32,027 nt of DNA from Dietzia alimentaria 72 (GTDB lineage: Bacteria; Actinomycetota; Actinomycetes; Mycobacteriales; Mycobacteriaceae), in the NCBI RefSeq assembly GCF_000226215.1, contig NZ_AGFF01000011.1, forward strand, positions 1 through 32,027. The letters are read 5' to 3'. The notes under the pieces were generated by a model. It had not been told where the DNA came from, did no database searches, and saw only the letters and a program-made list of their open reading frames with translations. The position numbers and the translations under genes were made by a program. Numbering within the stretch: the stretch's first letter is position 1; the number at the start of each line of letters is the position of its first letter. This document shows positions 6,993-29,724 of this stretch, one piece after another.

Positions 6993-8276
6993 ATGGACTT
7001 CTCCCCATCGCCCCGCGCTGCTGAGCTCACTGCGGCCGTCCGCGAGTTCATCGACACGCAGATCGTTCCGATCGAACCGGACATCCACGCCGACATCACC
7101 CGGCGCCGCCTGGCCGGCGAGGACGCCTGGGCCGTGGACCCACGGATCACCGAGCTGCAGCAGCGCGCCCGTGAGCAGGGACTCTGGAACCTCTTCCTCC
7201 CCGCCGGCCACGAGGGCCCGTACGCGGAGCGCTACGGCACCCGCGGTGGCGCCGGCCTCAACAACACCGACTACGCGCCGGTCGCGGAGGAGATGGGGCG
7301 CTCGTTCCTGGCGCCGCTGATCTTCAACTGCAACGCGCCGGATACGGGGAACATGGAGGTGCTGCTCAAGTACGGCTCGGACGAGCAGAAGGACCAGTGG
7401 CTGGATCCGCTGCTCGATGGGCGGATCCGCAGCGCCTTCCTCATGACCGAGCCCGACGTGGCTTCCTCCGACGCCTCCAACATGGCCGCCAGTGCCCGGA
7501 TCGAGGGCAACGAGGTGGTCCTGGACGGCCGCAAGTGGTGGTCCTCGGGTGTGGGCCACCCGGACTGCGAGGTCGGCATCTTCATGGGGATCTCCGACCC
7601 GGATGCGCACCGCTACCTACGGCACTCGATGGTGTTGGTGCCCATGGATGCCCCCGGCGTGACGGTGGAACGGATGCTCTCCGCGCAGGGCATGTACGAC
7701 GAGCCGCTCGGCCACGGTCAGGTGCGGCTCGACGGCGTGCGTCTGCCGGTGAGCAGCATCATCTCCGGGCCCGGCCGCGCCGCGGAGATCGCGCAGGGTC
7801 GCCTGGGGCCGGGGCGCGTCCACCACTGCATGCGCCTCATCGGGCTCGCGGAGATGGCGCTTGACTTGGCCTGCCGTCGGGCGTCGGAGCGCGTGGCGTT
7901 TGGCAAGCCCATCGTCAACCTCGGTGGGAACCGTGAGCGTCTGGCGGAGGCCCGCATCGCCATCGACCAGGCCCGGCTGCTGGTGCAGCACGCCGCGTGG
8001 AAGTTGGACACCGAGGGGCAGGCGGCGGTCGAGGTCAGTGCGATCAAGGCTGCCGTGCCCAAGATGGTGCAGCAGGTCATCGACATGGCCATGCAGCTCC
8101 ACGGTGGCGGCGGGATGAGCGACGACTTCCCGCTCGCGGGCGCCTACGCCACCGCGCGTGCGCTGCGATTGGCCGACGGCCCGGACGAGGTCCACCTCGG
8201 CGTCGTCGCCCGCGCCATGCTCGCCCCATACCGCGACGCGGCCGCCGCGCGCACCACCACGGAGCCCACCCGATGA
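6993..8276 (+). CDS. acyl-CoA dehydrogenase, ACAD11-like
   Basis: The 427-residue flavoprotein has the acyl-CoA dehydrogenase layout: N-terminal helical domain, beta domain with TEPDVASSD (152-160) and KWWSSGVGHP (181-190), and C-terminal helical domain with MQLHGGGGMSDDFPLA. Near the C-terminus it reads LADGPDEVH (about 393-401) where ordinary members have a GTxEI motif. This and the SSD/WWSSG block are hallmarks of the ACAD10/ACAD11 subfamily. Mammalian ACAD10/11 act with a kinase domain on 4-hydroxyacyl-CoAs, removing the phosphate to give enoyl-CoA. Here the kinase is the next gene, overlapping by ATGA, which supports that role over a plain beta-oxidation step. ATG 6993 is used; an upstream in-frame start at 6942 lacks family support. 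Confidence 0.9.
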   Translation: MDFSPSPRAAELTAAVREFIDTQIVPIEPDIHADITRRRLAGEDAWAVDPRITELQQRAREQGLWNLFLPAGHEGPYAERYGTRGGAGLNNTDYAPVAEEMGRSFLAPLIFNCNAPDTGNMEVLLKYGSDEQKDQWLDPLLDGRIRSAFLMTEPDVASSDASNMAASARIEGNEVVLDGRKWWSSGVGHPDCEVGIFMGISDPDAHRYLRHSMVLVPMDAPGVTVERMLSAQGMYDEPLGHGQVRLDGVRLPVSSIISGPGRAAEIAQGRLGPGRVHHCMRLIGLAEMALDLACRRASERVAFGKPIVNLGGNRERLAEARIAIDQARLLVQHAAWKLDTEGQAAVEVSAIKAAVPKMVQQVIDMAMQLHGGGGMSDDFPLAGAYATARALRLADGPDEVHLGVVARAMLAPYRDAAAARTTTEPTR

Positions 8277-9625
8277 CCACGCCCCACAACTCCTCCGGAC
8301 TCGACGACGGTCCCGGACACCGCGAGCCCGCCCTGCGCCGCCGGGTCCCGGGCACCGCCGAGGTGCGTGCCGAGGACGCGATCGATGTGGAAGCCGTGGC
8401 CGCGTGGTTGCGGTCGGTGACCCCACACGACGCCACCGTGCTCGCCGGGGTGGATCTGGGCGACGACGACAACCCGGTCATCCCCGAGGTCCGGCAATAC
8501 ACCGGGGGCGCGTCCAACCTCACCTATCTGCTGCGCTACCCGGGCGCGGACCTGGTTCTGCGTCGTCCGCCGGCGGGGACCAAGGCCCGCGGTGCGCACG
8601 ACATGGGCCGCGAGTACCGTATCCAGTCCGCGCTCCGACCCGTGTATCCGCTGGTGCCGCGCATGGTCGGATTCTGCAGTGACCAGTCCGTGATCGGTTC
8701 CGAGTTCTACGTGATGGAGCGGATGCAGGGCACGATCCTGCGCAAGGACCTGCCCCGCGAGCTCCGCATGGACCGCGTCACCACGCGCCGCCTGTGCGAA
8801 GCGGCTGTCGACGCCCTGGTGGACCTGCACTCGGTTGACGTGGAGGCCGCAGGCCTAGAGGATCTCGACCGCGGTGACGGCTACGTGCGCCGCCAGGTCG
8901 AGGGATGGTCGGCCCGCTACCGACGCGCCCGCACGCCCGACGTGCCCGACTTCACCCCGGTCATGAAGTGGCTGTCCGCCAACCAGCCACAGGACGTGAA
9001 GCGTTGCCTGATCCACAACGATTTCCGGTTCGACAATCTCGTCTTGGACCCCAACGACGTGACCTCCGTCGTCGGAGTCCTGGACTGGGAGATGGCCACG
9101 ATCGGTGACCCGCTCATGGACCTGGGCGGCGCCATGGCCTACTGGGTGCAAGAGGACGACGGCCCCGTGTTTAAGTCGTTCCGCCGCCAGCCCACGCATG
9201 CTCCGGGGATGCTCACCCGCCAGCAGTTCGTGGAGCGCTACACCCGCCGCATGGGCCTCGAGGTGAGCGAGGAACAGTGGCGGTTCTACGAGGTGTTCGG
9301 TCTTTTCCGGCTAGCCGTGATCGTTCAGCAGATCAACCATCGCTACTACCACGGTCAGACCACCAACCCGGCGTTCCGCGTGTTCCGGCCCGCGGTGGCG
9401 TTCCTGGAGCAGCGGTGCCTGCGCATCATCCGTACCGGCTCCGGACGGCTCACACCCACGCAGGTCGGTCCGCGCGACGTGATTCCGGAATTGCTGGCGG
9501 TGCCCCGCGTCGCGATCCCGCTCATCACCGGAGGCGTCCACGACATCCGTGGCACGGTCGGCGGGTGGCTGGGCGCAATCCCCGGATTCGGCGGGAAGAC
9601 CTCCGGCAGGGGCGGGTCGCGCTGA
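8273..9625 (+). CDS. APH-fold kinase (phosphotransferase family), ACAD10/11-kinase-like
   Basis: The 450-residue protein has the aminoglycoside phosphotransferase/choline kinase fold. It shows a glycine-containing loop TGGASNLTYLL (77-87), LVLRRPP with the strand that precedes the ATP-binding region, the catalytic loop CLIHNDFRFDN (245-255, D250 the likely base) and the metal-binding VLDWEMATIGDP (D271). This subgroup matches the N-terminal kinase domain of ACAD10/ACAD11 and LvaA of Pseudomonas levulinate catabolism, which phosphorylate 4-hydroxyacyl-CoA. It starts in an ATGA overlap with the acyl-CoA dehydrogenase stop and ends overlapping the phosphatase start by one base, so the three genes are almost certainly one operon. 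It is not an antibiotic-resistance enzyme on this evidence. The long, basic C-terminus after ~380 has no motif I recognise. Confidence 0.88.
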   Translation: MTTPHNSSGLDDGPGHREPALRRRVPGTAEVRAEDAIDVEAVAAWLRSVTPHDATVLAGVDLGDDDNPVIPEVRQYTGGASNLTYLLRYPGADLVLRRPPAGTKARGAHDMGREYRIQSALRPVYPLVPRMVGFCSDQSVIGSEFYVMERMQGTILRKDLPRELRMDRVTTRRLCEAAVDALVDLHSVDVEAAGLEDLDRGDGYVRRQVEGWSARYRRARTPDVPDFTPVMKWLSANQPQDVKRCLIHNDFRFDNLVLDPNDVTSVVGVLDWEMATIGDPLMDLGGAMAYWVQEDDGPVFKSFRRQPTHAPGMLTRQQFVERYTRRMGLEVSEEQWRFYEVFGLFRLAVIVQQINHRYYHGQTTNPAFRVFRPAVAFLEQRCLRIIRTGSGRLTPTQVGPRDVIPELLAVPRVAIPLITGGVHDIRGTVGGWLGAIPGFGGKTSGRGGSR

Positions 9626-10356
9626 TGGGTGTGATCCACCTGGTCCGTCATGGTCAGGCGTCGTTCGGCACCGGCGACTACGACAGGCTCTCCGAGACCG
9701 GCCACCTCCAGGCCCGCCTCGCGGGTGAGGACATGGCGGCGCGCGGACTGCGGCCGGATCTGATCGTCCACGGAGGACTGCGGCGACAGCGCGAGACCGC
9801 GGAGGGCCTGGTGGAGGGCTTGGTCGCGGGATGGGGCGACGGGGCCGGCCCGTCGCTGCAGGACTGCCCGGTCGAGGTGGACGCGCGCTGGGCCGAATAC
9901 GACGCCGACTCCGTCCTCGACGCCGCGCGCGTGGCCGGGCTGACGGCCGACCACGGCACCCTCGACTCGGCCAGTTCCTCCGACGACGCCAAGCTGGCGT
10001 TCCAGCGCCAGCTCGACCTGGCACTCGGCCATTGGGCCGGGCTCGAGGTGTTTGCCGACTACCGGACGGCCACCGAGGCCGCGGTCACTGACGCCGCCGC
10101 CCGGTCCGGGACGGGCCGGACGACGGTCGTGGTCTCCTCCGCTGGCACTATCTCGTTGGCCGTTGCCGGCCTGTTGGCCGACCCCGACGGCGTGGTGGGC
10201 CTGTGGACCAGGCTGCAGCGCGTCACCGTCAACACCGGCACCGCCCGGGTGGTGGTCGGTCGCGGTGGGATGACCTGCATCGCGGTTAACGAGCATCAGC
10301 ACCTCGAGCGGGCCGCCGGCCCGGACGATCCCCGTCGACTGATCACGCTGAGGTGA
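9625..10356 (+). CDS. histidine phosphatase superfamily protein (phosphoglycerate-mutase fold)
   Basis: The 243-residue protein opens with HLVRHGQASF, the RHG motif (residues 8-10) whose His is phosphorylated during catalysis. A second basic region, GLRRQRETAEGL, follows. VSSAGTISLAV near residue 172 occupies the place where the second catalytic His usually sits (often SHG); here it reads SAG, so that His seems to be absent or displaced. The start ATG shares one base with the kinase stop (TGATG), so the gene is coupled to the ACAD11-like/kinase pair. It might remove phosphate from an intermediate or by-product of that pathway; this is inference from position. An 82-base gap follows. Confidence 0.85.
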   Translation: MGVIHLVRHGQASFGTGDYDRLSETGHLQARLAGEDMAARGLRPDLIVHGGLRRQRETAEGLVEGLVAGWGDGAGPSLQDCPVEVDARWAEYDADSVLDAARVAGLTADHGTLDSASSSDDAKLAFQRQLDLALGHWAGLEVFADYRTATEAAVTDAAARSGTGRTTVVVSSAGTISLAVAGLLADPDGVVGLWTRLQRVTVNTGTARVVVGRGGMTCIAVNEHQHLERAAGPDDPRRLITLR

Positions 10357-10438: not shown

Positions 10439-11248
10439 ATGCCCACTTTCCAGCGCGGCCACACCACGATCGCCTACACCGACACCGGCGCCCCCGAGGG
10501 CCGCGAAGACGCTCCCGTGGTGTTCTTCGCCCACGGACTGCTGTTCTCGGGCTGGATGTTCCAGCATCAGATAGCGCACCTGAAGGACCGCTACCGCTGC
10601 GTCACCATCGACTTCCGCGGCCAGGGCCAGTCGCCCCGGGCGATGGGCGGATACGACATGGACACTCTCACCGTGGACGTGGCTGAACTGCTGCGGCACC
10701 TACAGATACCCGTGGTGAACTTCGTGGGGCTGTCCATGGGCGGATTCGTGGGAATACGGCTGGCGGCCCGGAACCCGGAGACGGTTCACACCCTGACCCT
10801 GATGGACACCGCCGCCACAGCGGAGGATCCCGCCAACCGGCCCAAGTACAAGCTGCTGTCCAAGGTCTACCGGGTCGCCGGGATCCGGCCGTTGCGTTCG
10901 CGGGTCGCGCCCATCATGTTGGCCCCCGGCAACGAGGAGGCGCCCTGGGTGCAGGAGTGGATATCCAGGACCGAGCGCATCGACCGCGCCGGGCTGGTCA
11001 AGGCCATCGAGTCGGTGGCCGACCGTGACCCGTGCGAGGACGAGGCCATCAGAGTGATCGCTCCGACGCTGGTCATGGTGGGTGCGGAGGACGCCGCCAC
11101 ACCGCCGGCCAAGTCGCTGCAACTGACGGAGCTGATCACCGACTCCCGGTTCCACGAGATCCCCGGGGCGGGGCATTCGCCCAGCATGGAGCGCCCGGAG
11201 GAGGTCAACTCCATCCTCGTGGCGTTCCTCTCCGAATACAACGCGTGA
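10439..11248 (+). CDS. alpha/beta-fold hydrolase
   Basis: The 269-residue enzyme has the oxyanion-hole region FFAHGLLFSGWMF (29-41), the nucleophile elbow GLSMGG (97-102, S99), an acid candidate in VMVGAEDAAT and the histidine in IPGAGHSPSMERPEE. DFRGQGQS (58-65) is the conserved strand-4 motif of epoxide hydrolase/haloperoxidase-like members. Length and motifs fit a complete soluble esterase or hydrolase; the substrate is unknown. ATG 10439 is well supported by AAGGAG seven bases upstream. The stop overlaps an in-frame GTG (11245) that could start the MMPL transporter, so this gene probably heads the hydrolase-MMPL-lipocalin unit. Confidence 0.88.
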   Translation: MPTFQRGHTTIAYTDTGAPEGREDAPVVFFAHGLLFSGWMFQHQIAHLKDRYRCVTIDFRGQGQSPRAMGGYDMDTLTVDVAELLRHLQIPVVNFVGLSMGGFVGIRLAARNPETVHTLTLMDTAATAEDPANRPKYKLLSKVYRVAGIRPLRSRVAPIMLAPGNEEAPWVQEWISRTERIDRAGLVKAIESVADRDPCEDEAIRVIAPTLVMVGAEDAATPPAKSLQLTELITDSRFHEIPGAGHSPSMERPEEVNSILVAFLSEYNA

Positions 11249-11262
11249 AGACTGGGAATTCG

Positions 11263-13479
11263 ATGGCCCGGGAGAGCACGACCAGGTCTGAGCCCGGCGA
11301 GAAATTCGGGCGCGGCGGTGGCTGGGTCGGTTTTCTGACGGGCAAGGCGTCAGCATGGGTGCTGTTGCTCGCGATGCTGGTGATCAGTGGAGCGGTGTTC
11401 GTGTTCGCCTCCTCCGAAGGATCCTCCGAGGCGCCCTCGACCCTCCCGAACGACTCCGAGGCCGCCCTCGTCTCCCGAATCCAGGCGGAGTTCCCCGACT
11501 CCGGATCGATTCCCGCGGTGCTGGTGGTGACCCGCGAGGACGGCGGTGAACTCGGGCCCGGGGGTATCGCCGCGGCCGTCGGCGCCGGTGAGCGGATGTC
11601 CGAGGTCGTGGGTGCTCCCGCGCAGGGGCCGATCCCCTCCGAGGACGGCGCCGCAGCCCTGATGCTTGTGCCTGTCGATTCCGAGCTGATCTCGGGCGAG
11701 GAGGGCCGTGAACTAGTCCAGACCATGCGCACCGCTGTGGCCGAGGGCGTCGACGAGGGCGTAAACGCCCAGCTCACCGGTGGCCCCGCGTTCGCCGCGG
11801 ACACCGCCGCGGCCTTCGAGGGTGCCGACTTCCGATTGCTCGCGGCTACCGCATTGGTCGTGGCGGTACTTCTCATCATCACGTATCGCTCGCCGGTGCT
11901 GTGGCTGGTCCCGCTGATCATCATCGGCGTGGCGGACCGGGTGTCCGCGCTGCTCATCTCCGCGGTGGGCGAGGCCCTCGACGTGACGGTCGACGCCTCT
12001 ACCTCCGGCATCGTCTCCGTCCTCGTCTTTGGCGCCGGCACCAACTACGCCCTCCTGCTGGTGTCCCGCTATCGAGAGGAACTGCGCAGGACAGAGGACC
12101 GGCGCACCGCCCTGAGAGATGCCTACCGCGGTGCCGTGCCCGCGATCCTCGCCAGCAACATCACGGTGGTCCTCGCGCTGCTCACACTGCTGCTGGCCAG
12201 CCTGCCGAACTACCGCTCGCTGGGCATGTCCGCCGCTGTGGGCCTGATCGTCGCCCTGATCTACGGGGTCATCGCCCTGCCCGCCGCCCTCGCTGTGTGT
12301 GGCCGCGGCCTGTTCTGGCCGTTCATCCCGCGCCCGGGTAAGAGCCACGGCAAGCACGAAACCGACTCCCACGGCACCGAGCCAGAGGCACAGGATTTCG
12401 ACGAAGAGGTCCCGCCCGGAATCTGGGGCCGGATCGCCTCTCGCGTCGTCCAGCGGCCCGTCACCGTGATCGTCTGCTGTGTCCTCCTGCTGGTGATCCT
12501 CGCACTGGGTCTGCTCGGCACGCGCATCGGACTGAGCCAGACGGAGCAATTCCGCAGCCCCTCCGAGGCCGCCGCCGGATTGGAGACCGCCGCCGAGCAC
12601 TACCCGGCCGGCGTCACCGATCCCGTCACGATTCTCGCCCGGACCGGAACCGAAACGCAGATCCTCGAGTCCGTCCGAGACGTACAGGGCGTGGTCTCCG
12701 CACGGCGGGCCGGCGACTCCGGAACCGGCTGGAGCCGCGTCACCGTGGTTCTGGACGCCGCCCCTGCGACCCCGGCGTCCGAGGCCAGCGTCACCGACCT
12801 GCGCGAGGCTGTGGACTCCGTGCCCGGCTCCGACGCGTTGGTCGGTGGCTCCGTCGCCGCGGCCGTCGACACCTCCCAGGGCAACCTGCGCGACCTCGCC
12901 GTGATCGCCCCGCTGATCCTGCTGGTGGTGTTGGTGGTGTTGATCCTGGTGCTGCGCTCACTCATCGCGCCGCTTCTGGTGATGACCGCGACCGTCCTGT
13001 CCTCGCTCGCTGCGCTGGGCCTGGGTACGTTCGTCACCACCCAGGTCCTCGGCTTCCCTGGACTGGACGTGGCGGTGCCGCTGTACAGCTTCCTGTTCCT
13101 GGTCTCGCTCGGGGTGGACTATTCGATTTTCCTCACCATCCGGGCCAGGGAAGAAGCCGCCACCCACGCCACCCGCGAGGCGATGGTCCGCGCGGTGGCG
13201 TTGACCGGCGGCGTGATCACGTCCGCGGGCGTGGTCCTGGCCTCGGTGTTCGTCGTGCTGGGTGTCCTCCCACTCATCGTGCTGACCCAGGTCGGCGTGA
13301 TCGTGGCCCTCGGAGTCCTGCTCGACACATTCGTCGTCCGCACCCTCGTCGTCCCGGCACTGTTCACGCTCGTCGGCGACAACGTGTGGTGGCCGGGGAA
13401 CCCCCGCCGACACGTGATCGGGCGCGGTGGTGCCGCCACGTCCGGAAGAAATTCAGTCACAAAGGAGATCCACACATGA
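11263..13479 (+). CDS. MMPL family (RND superfamily) transporter
   Basis: The 738-residue inner-membrane protein has two MMPL repeats. Each has an N-terminal helix, a large extracytoplasmic domain and a bundle of about five helices, separated by a hydrophilic His/Glu-rich linker near residues 360-390. Family members export envelope lipids or siderophores using the proton gradient. The second proton-relay motif is present as GVDYSIFL (D619); the first reads GTNYALLL, with Asn at residue 261 where MmpL3 has Asp. ATG 11263 is taken; GTG 11245, overlapping the hydrolase stop, would add six residues. The stop overlaps the ATG of the lipocalin gene, so export and lipocalin are likely made together. 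The substrate is unknown. Confidence 0.9.
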   Translation: MARESTTRSEPGEKFGRGGGWVGFLTGKASAWVLLLAMLVISGAVFVFASSEGSSEAPSTLPNDSEAALVSRIQAEFPDSGSIPAVLVVTREDGGELGPGGIAAAVGAGERMSEVVGAPAQGPIPSEDGAAALMLVPVDSELISGEEGRELVQTMRTAVAEGVDEGVNAQLTGGPAFAADTAAAFEGADFRLLAATALVVAVLLIITYRSPVLWLVPLIIIGVADRVSALLISAVGEALDVTVDASTSGIVSVLVFGAGTNYALLLVSRYREELRRTEDRRTALRDAYRGAVPAILASNITVVLALLTLLLASLPNYRSLGMSAAVGLIVALIYGVIALPAALAVCGRGLFWPFIPRPGKSHGKHETDSHGTEPEAQDFDEEVPPGIWGRIASRVVQRPVTVIVCCVLLLVILALGLLGTRIGLSQTEQFRSPSEAAAGLETAAEHYPAGVTDPVTILARTGTETQILESVRDVQGVVSARRAGDSGTGWSRVTVVLDAAPATPASEASVTDLREAVDSVPGSDALVGGSVAAAVDTSQGNLRDLAVIAPLILLVVLVVLILVLRSLIAPLLVMTATVLSSLAALGLGTFVTTQVLGFPGLDVAVPLYSFLFLVSLGVDYSIFLTIRAREEAATHATREAMVRAVALTGGVITSAGVVLASVFVVLGVLPLIVLTQVGVIVALGVLLDTFVVRTLVVPALFTLVGDNVWWPGNPRRHVIGRGGAATSGRNSVTKEIHT

Positions 13480-14177
13480 GCACCTCACCCCGTACGCGAC
13501 TTCGGTTCGCAGTCGCCGTCTCGGTTATCGCACCGCTGCTGGCGGCCGGCCTCGGTGCTGTCGCCGCCCCCGCTGCCGGGGCTCAGGACATCACCGACGG
13601 TGGTCGTCTGGGCGGAGGCTCCTCGCAGCTTCTGCCGGACGGGATCGCAGTCGGCTCCGTCGGCGGCCCCGAACTCGAACAGGTCGATTCGGTGGACCTC
13701 AAGCGCTACCAGGGGAGTTGGTTACAGGTGGCCGCGATCCCGCAGCCGTACACACTCCAGTGCACCAACGACACCCGCGCCGACTACGCGATCACCGCGC
13801 CCGGCACCGTGTCCGTCCGTAACACCTGCGGCACCGCGATCAGCTCGGACTCCGTGATCGACGGAGAGGCCAAAGTCATCGACACCGACACCAACGCCTC
13901 GCTCCGGGTGACCTTCCCGCTGGTGCCGTTCCAGAAAGAGGACGGTCCCGCCAATTATCGGATCACCTACCTGAACGACGACTACACGCTGGCGATCGTG
14001 GGCGATCCCTCCAGGTCCTCGGGCTTCGTACTGAGCCGTGAGCCCGCGCTCGATGCCGACCAGTGGTCGACCGTGCGCGACGTGATCGAGGACCGTGGAT
14101 GGTGGTCGTGTGCCTTTGTGACCGTACCGATGGCCGGCGGACGCGGCGACGCGACCCCACTGTGCCTCTTACCGTGA
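13476..14177 (+). CDS. secreted lipocalin family protein
   Basis: The 233-residue product starts with a Sec signal peptide (charged MSTSPRTRLR, hydrophobic core, likely cut after AGA at about 36). It has no lipobox. The mature part has the lipocalin first motif YQGSWLQVAAIP (GSW at 80-82), then LQCTNDTRADYAI and RNTCGTAI, two cysteines that could pair. Later come NYRITYLNDDYTLAIVGDP and FVLSREPALD, as in Blc-type bacterial lipocalins. Two more cysteines lie near the C-terminus (WWSCAF, ATPLCLLP). Lipocalins bind small hydrophobic molecules. ATG 13476 overlaps the MMPL stop, with AAAGGAG seven bases upstream, so it is probably the extracytoplasmic partner of the transporter. This pairing is inference; the fold call is firm. 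Confidence 0.85.
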   Translation: MSTSPRTRLRFAVAVSVIAPLLAAGLGAVAAPAAGAQDITDGGRLGGGSSQLLPDGIAVGSVGGPELEQVDSVDLKRYQGSWLQVAAIPQPYTLQCTNDTRADYAITAPGTVSVRNTCGTAISSDSVIDGEAKVIDTDTNASLRVTFPLVPFQKEDGPANYRITYLNDDYTLAIVGDPSRSSGFVLSREPALDADQWSTVRDVIEDRGWWSCAFVTVPMAGGRGDATPLCLLP

Positions 14178-14205
14178 TCCGTCGGCGAAACCAGGGGAGT
14201 ACCAG

Positions 14206-15600
14206 ATGAGCATTGATGTCAGTTGCACGATTCCGGTCGACCACTCGGAGGCATGGCGCTACTTCGCCTCGCCGGGCGCTCTGGTGCGGCTCTCGCCTCC
14301 GTTCATGCCGCTGCGGCCCGCCGTCGAGGCCACCTCGCTGCGCGACGGGGTGGCGGTTCTCGAGCCGAGATCCGCGCTGCCGGGCCCGCTCGGGATGAGA
14401 CTCGGTCCGCGCTGGTATGCGCAGCATGACCCGGCCGGGTACGTCGAGGGCGAGGCTTTTGTTGACCGCTGCGACTCGCAGCCCTACGCCGCCGCCACTG
14501 GTTGGGTCCACCACCACTCGGTTACCCCGGGGCCTATCACCGGCGCCCAGGACGCTCCCACGACGATCCTCGGCGACAGGGTCGACGCCCGAGTCCCGGG
14601 GCGGCTGCTCTCCCCGGTATTCGCCTACCGCTATCGGCAGATGGCCGCCGACCTGACCACGATCGCCAGGTTTTCCACCTCAAAGCCGCTGACCGTGGCG
14701 GTCACCGGCGCCAGCGGCCTGGTCGGTGGCGCACTCACGGCTTTGCTCGGAGTGGCCGGCCATCGCGTCATCCGTCTGGTGCGCGGCGACGCCCACGGAC
14801 CCGGTGAACGTCAGTGGGATACCGCCGCCCCCGCGTCCGATCTGCTCGACAACGTCGACGTGCTGGTCCACCTCGCGGGCGCACCCATCGCCGGACGCTT
14901 CACCGACAGTCATCTCGCCCGGGTGCGTGACAGCCGCATCGAACCGACCCGACGACTGGCCGAGCTGGTCGCCCGGCGCGACGGCAAGACCACTTTCGTG
15001 TGCGCCTCGGCCATCGGCTTCTACGGGTCTGATCGCGGGGACGAGCAGCTGACCGAGCACTCCGAGCCCGGGACCGGCCCCTTGGCGGACATCGTGCAGG
15101 ACTGGGAGAGCGCCTGCGAACCAGCACGGAAGTCCGGAGCCCGGGTGGTCAACGTCCGCACCGGAGTCGTGTTGTCCGGGGCCGGAGGGATGCTGCCGCC
15201 GCTGGCCGCGATCATGCGCACAGGACTTGGTGGGCGACTGGGGACAGGTCGTCAGTGGCTGTCGTGGATCGCTCTCGACGACCTCACCGACCTCTACCTG
15301 CGGGCCATCGTGGACGCGTCAGTCGAGGGGATCGTCAACGCCACCGCACCCGAACCCGTCACCAACAGTGAATTCACGCGCGTCCTGGGATCGGTGCTTC
15401 ACCGGCCGACAGTCCTCCCCGTCCCGGGTTGGGCTCCCGGACTGTTGCTCGGCCAGCGGGGGGCCGGGGAACTGGCGCTGGCGGACCAGCGCGTCCTCCC
15501 GCGGCTGCTCGAGACTCTGGAGCACCCGTTCCGCTACCCGAGCCTGCGCGTCGCGCTGGAGCACGATCTGGGAGCGGAGGAGCTCCCAGCGGCGCTGTAG
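14206..15600 (+). CDS. SRPBCC domain fused to TIGR01777-type SDR epimerase
   Basis: The 464-residue protein has two parts. Residues 1-155 form an SRPBCC/START-like hydrophobic-ligand fold (SIDVSCTIPVDHSEAWRYF, later GWVHHHSVTPG and FAYRYRQMAADL). Residues 160-460 are an NAD(P)-binding epimerase of the TIGR01777/SDR39U1 group, with the glycine motif TGASGLVG (168-175), DVLVHLAGAPI, the SAIGFYG active-site tyrosine segment, and a C-terminal DUF1731 region. The group's reaction is not known. A good ribosome-binding site (AGGGGAG) precedes ATG 14206, 28 bases after the lipocalin stop, so it may share that transcript. A perfect hairpin after the stop probably ends transcription. Confidence 0.88.
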   Translation: MSIDVSCTIPVDHSEAWRYFASPGALVRLSPPFMPLRPAVEATSLRDGVAVLEPRSALPGPLGMRLGPRWYAQHDPAGYVEGEAFVDRCDSQPYAAATGWVHHHSVTPGPITGAQDAPTTILGDRVDARVPGRLLSPVFAYRYRQMAADLTTIARFSTSKPLTVAVTGASGLVGGALTALLGVAGHRVIRLVRGDAHGPGERQWDTAAPASDLLDNVDVLVHLAGAPIAGRFTDSHLARVRDSRIEPTRRLAELVARRDGKTTFVCASAIGFYGSDRGDEQLTEHSEPGTGPLADIVQDWESACEPARKSGARVVNVRTGVVLSGAGGMLPPLAAIMRTGLGGRLGTGRQWLSWIALDDLTDLYLRAIVDASVEGIVNATAPEPVTNSEFTRVLGSVLHRPTVLPVPGWAPGLLLGQRGAGELALADQRVLPRLLETLEHPFRYPSLRVALEHDLGAEELPAAL

Positions 15601-28554: not shown

Positions 28555-29724
28555 GTGTCCGCACTCTTTCCTGACTATCGTCCCTCCTGGGAAACCGACG
28601 ATCACCAGCTCCTTCGGGGGCACGCCCGCGCGTTCTTCGCCAAGGAGATGACGCCCAACCAGGAGAAGTGGTCGGCTCAGAAATACGTCGACCGCCAGAC
28701 CTGGCTGCGCACCGGCGAGGCCGGCCTGATCTGCCTCGACGTGCCGGAGGAGTTCGGCGGCCAGGGCGGCGACCCGGGCATGGAATACCTCGTGACCGAA
28801 GAGCTCGTCTACTCCGGCGACACGGCGTTCGGTATGGGCGTCGGCTCGACCATCACCCCGCACTACGTCGCCAATTACGCCACCGACGAACAAAAGCGCG
28901 AGTGGCTGCCGAAGATCTGCTCGGGCGAGTGGATCTCGGCCATCGCCATGACCGAGCCGGGCGCCGGCTCTGACCTCAAGGGCGTCCGCACCACGGCGCG
29001 CAGGGAGGGCGAGGGCCCGGATGCCGTGTACGTCATCAACGGCTCCAAGACCTTCATCTCCAACGGTGGCTCGGCCGACTTCGTGGTGGTGGTGGCCAAG
29101 ACCGACCTCGACGCCGGCCACAAGGGCATGGCCCTGTTCGCCGTGGAAGCCGACACGCCCGGCTTCGAGCGTGGCCGCGTCCTGGAGAAGATGGGCCGTC
29201 ACGGCGCCGACACCGCCGAGCTGTTTTTCAACGACATGCGCGTGCCCGCCGCCAACCTGCTCGGCGGTGAGGAGGGACAGGGCTTCTATCAGCTCATGAA
29301 CCAGCTCCCGCGAGAGCGCCTGGCGATCGCCGTGGACGCGCTGGCGATGGCCGAGGCCGCCGTCGTGGAGACCCTCGCCTACACACGGGAGCGGCAGGCG
29401 TTCGGCAAGCCGATCCTGGACTTCCAGAACACCCGCTTCGAGCTGGCGCACTGTAAGACCCAGGTCATGGCCACCCGCACGTTCATCGACCACTGCATTT
29501 CTCGGGAGATCGCCGGGGACCTCGATGCCGTGACCGCGTCCATGGCCAAGCTGCAGGCCACCGACATGCTCGACGACGTGGTGGACCGCTGCCTCCAGCT
29601 GTTCGGTGGCTACGGCTACATGATGGAGTACCCCATCGCGCAGAAGTTCGCCGGCGCCCGCGTCATGCGGATCTACGGCGGCACAAACGAAATCATGAAG
29701 GAGGTCATCGGCCGCGCGCTCTGA
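28555..29724 (+). CDS. acyl-CoA dehydrogenase (second copy)
   Basis: The 389-residue protein is a standard acyl-CoA dehydrogenase: MTEPGAGSDLKGVRTTARRE (FAD/substrate loop), NGSKTFISNGGSADFVVVVA, REQ-like YTRERQAFGKPI, and the C-terminal MRIYGGTNEIMKEVIGRAL that carries the ordinary GTxEI motif. It differs in that motif from the ACAD11-like enzyme at 6993, so it probably works in ordinary fatty-acid beta-oxidation. GTG 28555 has CGGAGG eight bases upstream. A perfect hairpin follows the stop. Confidence 0.92.
   Translation: MSALFPDYRPSWETDDHQLLRGHARAFFAKEMTPNQEKWSAQKYVDRQTWLRTGEAGLICLDVPEEFGGQGGDPGMEYLVTEELVYSGDTAFGMGVGSTITPHYVANYATDEQKREWLPKICSGEWISAIAMTEPGAGSDLKGVRTTARREGEGPDAVYVINGSKTFISNGGSADFVVVVAKTDLDAGHKGMALFAVEADTPGFERGRVLEKMGRHGADTAELFFNDMRVPAANLLGGEEGQGFYQLMNQLPRERLAIAVDALAMAEAAVVETLAYTRERQAFGKPILDFQNTRFELAHCKTQVMATRTFIDHCISREIAGDLDAVTASMAKLQATDMLDDVVDRCLQLFGGYGYMMEYPIAQKFAGARVMRIYGGTNEIMKEVIGRAL

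Follow-up and report, generated by a model that had tools for sequence, protein, structure and literature searches.

What does a histidine-phosphatase-like protein that lacks the second catalytic His do beside two enzymes predicted to process 4-hydroxy acids? This question is raised by a 32,027-nucleotide stretch of Dietzia alimentaria 72 (contig NZ_AGFF01000011.1, positions 1 to 32,027; hereafter, the window), which encodes, in order, an ACAD11/LvaC-type acyl-coenzyme A (CoA) dehydrogenase (DH), an ACAD11/LvaA-type kinase with the APH fold, and a histidine-phosphatase-fold protein (HP). The original prediction described these genes as overlapping end to end across 6993-10356, and both the coordinates and the overlaps, of 4 and 1 bases, were borne out (Table 1). 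We propose, at what we judge to be an even chance, that they encode a module that would isomerise 4-hydroxyacyl-CoA and in which HP would be an atypical, catalytic phosphatase acting on the 4-phospho intermediate. The order DH, kinase, HP was common to all six Dietzia regions examined, and the host genome (3.35 Mb) contained a single HP copy, whose best named match, among those listed, came from Dietzia sp. E1 (84% identity, locus L034).

The identity of the first two proteins was clear from comparisons to solved structures. Specifically, DH matched 4hr3 at 595 bits and three ACAD11 chains at 378-383 bits, while the best match after these, among those listed, reached 133 bits, placing DH over its full length nearer to ACAD11 than to ordinary acyl-CoA dehydrogenases, the alternative that the original prediction had raised against itself. 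GTxEI is missing from DH; the ordinary acyl-CoA dehydrogenase located elsewhere in the window carries GTNEI. By alignment, R270, H278, R281, and D395 of DH correspond to R626, H634, R637, and D753 of mouse ACAD11, assuming that the deposited chain is numbered one below the published numbering, and these are residues that the accessible part of the ACAD11 report ties to the phosphorylated substrate and to catalysis (PMC12440821). Thus, a catalytic Asp (D395) replaces Glu, and the R/H/R phosphate cluster is present; the equivalents of all four residues were kept in 41 of 41 DHs from HP loci.

The kinase matched Pfam PF01636 at 178 bits, and its nearest solved relatives were 9o56 (273 bits), ACAD11 (169-172 bits), and 3dxp (156 bits). 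It has the catalytic Asp and Asn of the APH fold (D250, N255) as well as D271, which we take to be the Mg-binding Asp. D250, N255, and R207 align with D220, N225, and R176 of ACAD11 and were kept in all 61 kinases covered at these positions (62 loci). R176 is one of the CoA-contact residues of ACAD11; for another, R86, no position could be assigned in the chain numbering. Apart from the latter, DH and the kinase have every published ACAD11 active-site residue that could be mapped. The DH motifs TEPDVASSD, KWWSSG, and LADGPDEVH and the kinase motifs IHNDFRFDN and LDWE were found at the places originally described, and the bit scores and mappable residues support the claim that DH and kinase are a split counterpart of ACAD10/11 and of LvaA/LvaC.

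According to the available portions of two reports, ACAD10/11 phosphorylate 4-hydroxyacyl-CoA and then eliminate the phosphate to yield 2-enoyl-CoA, and LvaA/LvaC are reported to act likewise (PMC12440821, PMC11342911). Both the kinase and the dehydrogenase of the mammalian proteins are homologous to those of the window, with matching residues, but are fused in mammals and split here. Based on this homology and the conserved active-site residues, the Dietzia kinase would phosphorylate the 4-hydroxyl of 4-hydroxyacyl-CoA, and DH would eliminate the phosphate, delivering 2-enoyl-CoA to beta-oxidation with no net oxidation.

We then considered the third protein. HP passed Pfam PF00300 (39.2, against a cut-off of 21.7) and has the fold of histidine phosphatase branch 1, its nearest solved fold being the protein phosphatase PGAM5, with PhoE and RosC scoring almost equally. 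Like other members of this branch (PhoE, PGAM5, CobC), it retains the RHG motif with the nucleophile (R8, H9), the second Arg (R54), and the acidic Glu (E91). Unlike them, it has Ser in place of the second His, Gly in place of the pocket Ser, and a conserved FN-x-H-x-HL tail. For a broader view, we assembled 106 HPs, comprising that of the window, 13 from a class sample of genomes, 12 from plasmid records (of 44 found, the record listings having covered 40 of 44 and 40 of 294), and 80 relatives, the best of at least 582, after dropping one duplicate (L001) and leaving out further Dietzia HPs (L114-L131) and one piece (L132). The scan that yielded the relatives required RHGQASFG, and residues 8-15 are thus kept by construction in those 80 only. 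Across the 106 HPs, the equivalents of R8, H9, R54, and E91 were kept, and Gly 50, which replaces the pocket Ser, was invariant. The second catalytic His was Ser (S172 in HP) in 106 of 106, from five phyla, while six further histidine phosphatases encoded in the D. alimentaria genome all have His at this position. The original prediction was therefore right that this His is lost, but not that Ala replaces it in SAG: SSAG aligns with the [S/A/V]-H-x-x of known phosphatases such that Ser 172 is at the His position and the Ala is one residue further. In the tail, N-x-H-x-H-L (residues 222-227, window 10288-10305), N222 was present in 106, H226 in 102, and H224 in 87 of the 106 HPs.

The median ratio of nonsynonymous to synonymous polymorphism (pN/pS) in six Dietzia genomes was 0.20 for HP, 0.14 for DH, and 0.25 for the kinase, such that HP is under constraint. 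Local decay as the source of the odd motif was ruled out by this constraint and by its presence across the subfamily. The annotation 'histidine phosphatase family protein' may overpromise for these 106 members, drawn from at least 582 relatives, in which the second catalytic His is missing.

Because the nucleophile, the Arg pair, and the Glu are kept, and the Ser is strict, we favor atypical catalysis. The TGATG overlap likely couples translation of HP to that of the kinase, and HP, made beside the kinase, would then deal with the phosphorylated intermediate, stripping phosphate either from 4-phosphoacyl-CoA or from free 4-phospho acid after loss of the thioester. The free 4-phospho acid has been found in cells running the 4-hydroxy acid pathway, according to the portion of the report available (PMC11342911). 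Such action would prevent 4-phospho compounds from piling up and CoA from being tied up, and HP would answer in bacteria the need that a kinase-restraining HAD domain serves in ACAD10. We take the substitutions to reflect a pocket reshaped for a bulky acyl phosphate, where the Ser may still hold phosphate, rather than a loss of function. That HP is instead needed for the main reaction, removing the phosphate as a substitute for the LvaC-type enzyme or jointly with it, was suggested for Pseudomonas citronellolis, as far as the accessible text goes (PMC6692424). This we regard as scarcely credible, given that plain hydrolysis returns 4-hydroxyacyl-CoA rather than an enoyl-CoA, that DH retains the residues for phosphate elimination, and that HP was missing from 9 of 15 class genomes with a close kinase (at least 56% identity).

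The connection between HP and the kinase was recovered well beyond Dietzia. A same-strand kinase lay within 300 bases of HP in 60 of the 106 loci. In 57 loci it was upstream, the gap having a median of -1 base and lying between -30 and +10 in 44 of them, and in five further loci HP preceded the kinase. The kinase was also the commonest direct neighbor (50 of 90 loci, versus 20 for short-chain dehydrogenases); our home-made gene caller missed genes in L029, L080, L087, L104, L133, and L140-L142, and these neighbor counts are lower bounds. The same counts bear on the idea that HP has another substrate within the same metabolism, for example a phosphoprotein, as its PGAM5-like fold could suggest, or a product handled by the neighboring short-chain dehydrogenases. 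This seems distinctly unlikely to us, with the kinase the more frequent neighbor and with fold likeness revealing no substrate, PhoE and RosC scoring near PGAM5. As separate observations, HP genes distant from a kinase adjoined a short-chain dehydrogenase in L055, L069, L073, and L074, and one in L061 (4784-7654) adjoined a FadB-like beta-oxidation enzyme.

HP was detected in 14 of 118 class genomes (E <= 1e-10), all 14 of which had both kinase and DH, versus 65 and 58, respectively, of the 104 genomes without HP (p = 0.0045 and 0.0008). Within Dietzia, HP was present in 20 of 23 genomes, in one of them as a fragment of 35 residues where the contig ends, and a close kinase in 19, all of them with HP. 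The three Dietzia genomes without HP also had no close kinase, two of them being incomplete (64% and 87%). HP relatives adjoining the same kinase were found in Alpha-, Beta-, and Gammaproteobacteria, Deinococcota, and Myxococcota, and at the same E-value threshold none of the seven further genomes that represent the same order in the class sample had HP. The phosphatase is consequently not an actinobacterial addition, as had been supposed, and confinement of HP to Actinobacteria was ruled out by loci in other phyla. Among the 12 plasmid records, a kinase was annotated near HP in ten (two Streptomyces, Deinococcus, Azospirillum, Ideonella, Pseudoalteromonas, Sulfitobacter, Azoarcus, Caballeronia, and a Rhodobacteraceae), and nine of these ten had a DH of at least 200 bits in the same stretch, the Sulfitobacter stretch having none. 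HP was without a kinase in a Haematobacter plasmid, and the unannotated HP locus of a Cupriavidus plasmid had no kinase at the cut-off.

Several observations weigh against the proposed role. Six kinase-HP gaps were below -30 (down to -484), perhaps from misplaced gene ends, and seven exceeded +10, while the Fisher tests on co-occurrence ignore kinship. The 9 of 15 class genomes mentioned above had the close kinase but no HP. DH-kinase pairs had no HP at L134, L135, and L139, the loci for which absence beside the kinase is claimed, and the second kinase-DH pair of the D. alimentaria genome itself (C18) was without HP in the stretch read. Further, 44 of the 106 HP loci had no same-strand kinase at the cut-off, nine of them being only 2.8-3.7 kilobases (kb) long. 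We searched 30 genomes drawn from these 44 loci, and all 30 held both kinase and DH, but in 25 only the distant kinase class was found (best match 31-41% identity); some kinase was likewise present at that threshold in 65 of the 104 HP-less class genomes. Among the other 14, nine class-sample genomes had both genes; the rest were L031 (where a distant kinase adjoins HP), the plasmid records L025 and L028, and L050 and L100, which were unchecked. All three activities are predicted from sequence, and the phosphate pocket ordinarily includes the second His, such that HP may be inactive.

Taken with the consistent presence of both enzymes in HP genomes, the close-kinase genomes without HP lead us to consider HP an optional partner, which, where whole genomes could be checked, is always accompanied by both pathway enzymes. 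A strict link of HP to a neighboring kinase gene was rejected, as the kinase-linked label changes at least ten times on the tree (starred branches), with the nine short loci, which may hide a kinase, counted apart. The second pair in D. alimentaria (C18:41507-43647, L002) had a kinase 35% and a DH 49% identical to those of the window, and a distant-class kinase like that of this pair was present in all 23 Dietzia genomes.

The missing second His makes a purely regulatory role a serious rival. In this scenario, which we consider doubtful, HP would be a non-catalytic pseudophosphatase that binds the kinase or its phosphorylated product and either holds back the kinase, as happens in ACAD10, or assists it, as LvaB might. 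In most of the 57 loci with the kinase upstream, its stop overlaps the HP start, which suggests a complex; none of these 57 loci encoded a kinase-HP fusion, which speaks against this rival. The HAD domain of ACAD10, which is of another fold and occurs where these bacteria have HP, has an incomplete motif, shows hardly any phosphatase activity, and keeps the kinase in check, according to the accessible part of the report (PMC11342911). However, the invariant nucleophile, both Arg, and the Glu, with His exchanged for Ser alone, exceed what a scaffold needs.

Comparison to levulinate operons speaks to the same rival. As in the window, LvaA and LvaC of Pseudomonas putida are a separate APH-fold kinase and an ACAD-type enzyme, but in the window DH precedes the kinase, HP follows the pair, there is no LvaB, and no LvaD- or LvaE-like gene adjoins. 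Neither an LvaD reductase nor an LvaE CoA ligase was found beside the pair, the rest of the genome not having been searched. In the available text, the P. putida operon has LvaB instead of HP, a further sign that the pair can do without HP, and LvaB binds LvaA (PMC6692424). The levulinate cluster of P. citronellolis LA18T (PCLA_07f0390-0396) resembles the window in bringing together kinase, histidine phosphatase, and LvaC-like dehydrogenase without lvaB, the phosphatase gene lying between the lvaA and lvaC homologs (PMC6692424); it differs, as far as that text describes it, in its gene order and in having further lva genes along with a short-chain dehydrogenase. The portion of the report available offers the guess that the phosphatase dephosphorylates 4-phosphovaleryl-CoA, calls for a functional test, and does not mention the second His (PMC6692424). 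Thus, the earlier statement that the role of the third gene is undescribed stands in that no function is established, but both an association with lvaA/lvaC homologs and a dephosphorylation guess are in print. The gene association in P. citronellolis is already known, while the missing second His, the subfamily, and its breadth were not found reported in the literature searched, which consisted mostly of work outside subscription journals.

LvaB's family, DUF6285 (PF19802), had no match in the D. alimentaria genome and was in none of the 14 HP class genomes, against 13 of 118 overall, an exclusion that would fit HP taking LvaB's place but is not significant (p = 0.36). The Azoarcus sp. KH32C plasmid (L031:4614-6678) encodes kinase, DUF6285, and HP overlapping by one base each, showing that LvaB and HP do not exclude each other. 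Because of the p value and of Azoarcus, the case for HP as a stand-in for LvaB is weak. A more specific version, in which the Ser-for-His exchange turned a phylum-crossing family into a control subunit that would bind the phosphorylated product in its retained pocket and throttle 4-hydroxyacyl-CoA kinases, strikes us as fairly improbable. If true, ACAD10's degenerate HAD domain, and perhaps LvaB too, would have in HP an unrelated bacterial equivalent, with one brake invented separately. In mammals, it was not until 2024-2025 that enzymes were assigned to the 4-hydroxy acid pathway, and control of the phosphorylated intermediate is also a question there, for which the HP subfamily offers a concrete bacterial protein.

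Table 1. Features of the window and their positions.
Feature	Position	Strand	Remark
DH, ACAD11/LvaC-type acyl-CoA dehydrogenase	6993..8276	+	427 amino acids
Kinase, ACAD11/LvaA-type, APH fold	8273..9625	+	450 amino acids
HP, histidine-phosphatase-fold protein	9625..10356	+	243 amino acids
ATGA	8273..8276	+	4-base overlap, DH stop and kinase start
TGATG	9623..9627	+	1-base overlap, kinase stop and HP start
TEPDVASSD	7446-7472		DH motif
KWWSSG	7533-7550		DH motif
LADGPDEVH	8169-8195		DH motif
IHNDFRFDN	9011-9037		Kinase motif
LDWE	9080-9091		Kinase motif
SSAG	10135-10146		HP motif
Alpha/beta hydrolase	10439..11248	+	269 amino acids; possible module associate, membership putative
MMPL transporter, lipocalin-like protein, TIGR01777 oxidoreductase	11359-14177 and 14206-15600		Downstream
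IS21-like element	1497-3934		Gene with Mu-type transposase C-terminal domain, then IstB ATPase gene
Ordinary acyl-CoA dehydrogenase	28555-29724		Carries GTNEI

Finally, the alpha/beta hydrolase directly followed HP in all six Dietzia regions and in L034. Its nearest solved relative was a 3-oxoadipate enol-lactonase (89 bits), and it fell below family cut-offs. A 47% relative was located near the Streptomyces plasmid operon of L033, on the opposite strand, and a different alpha/beta hydrolase lay within 4.5 kb of HP in at least 7 of 90 loci, from Burkholderiales or unplaced Proteobacteria by title. We conjecture that the Dietzia enzyme might open a gamma-lactone (or ester) and so supply the 4-hydroxy acid of the pathway. 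Beyond it, the Dietzia regions continued, as judged by eye, with genes similar in size and in their starts to those at 11359-15600 of the window.

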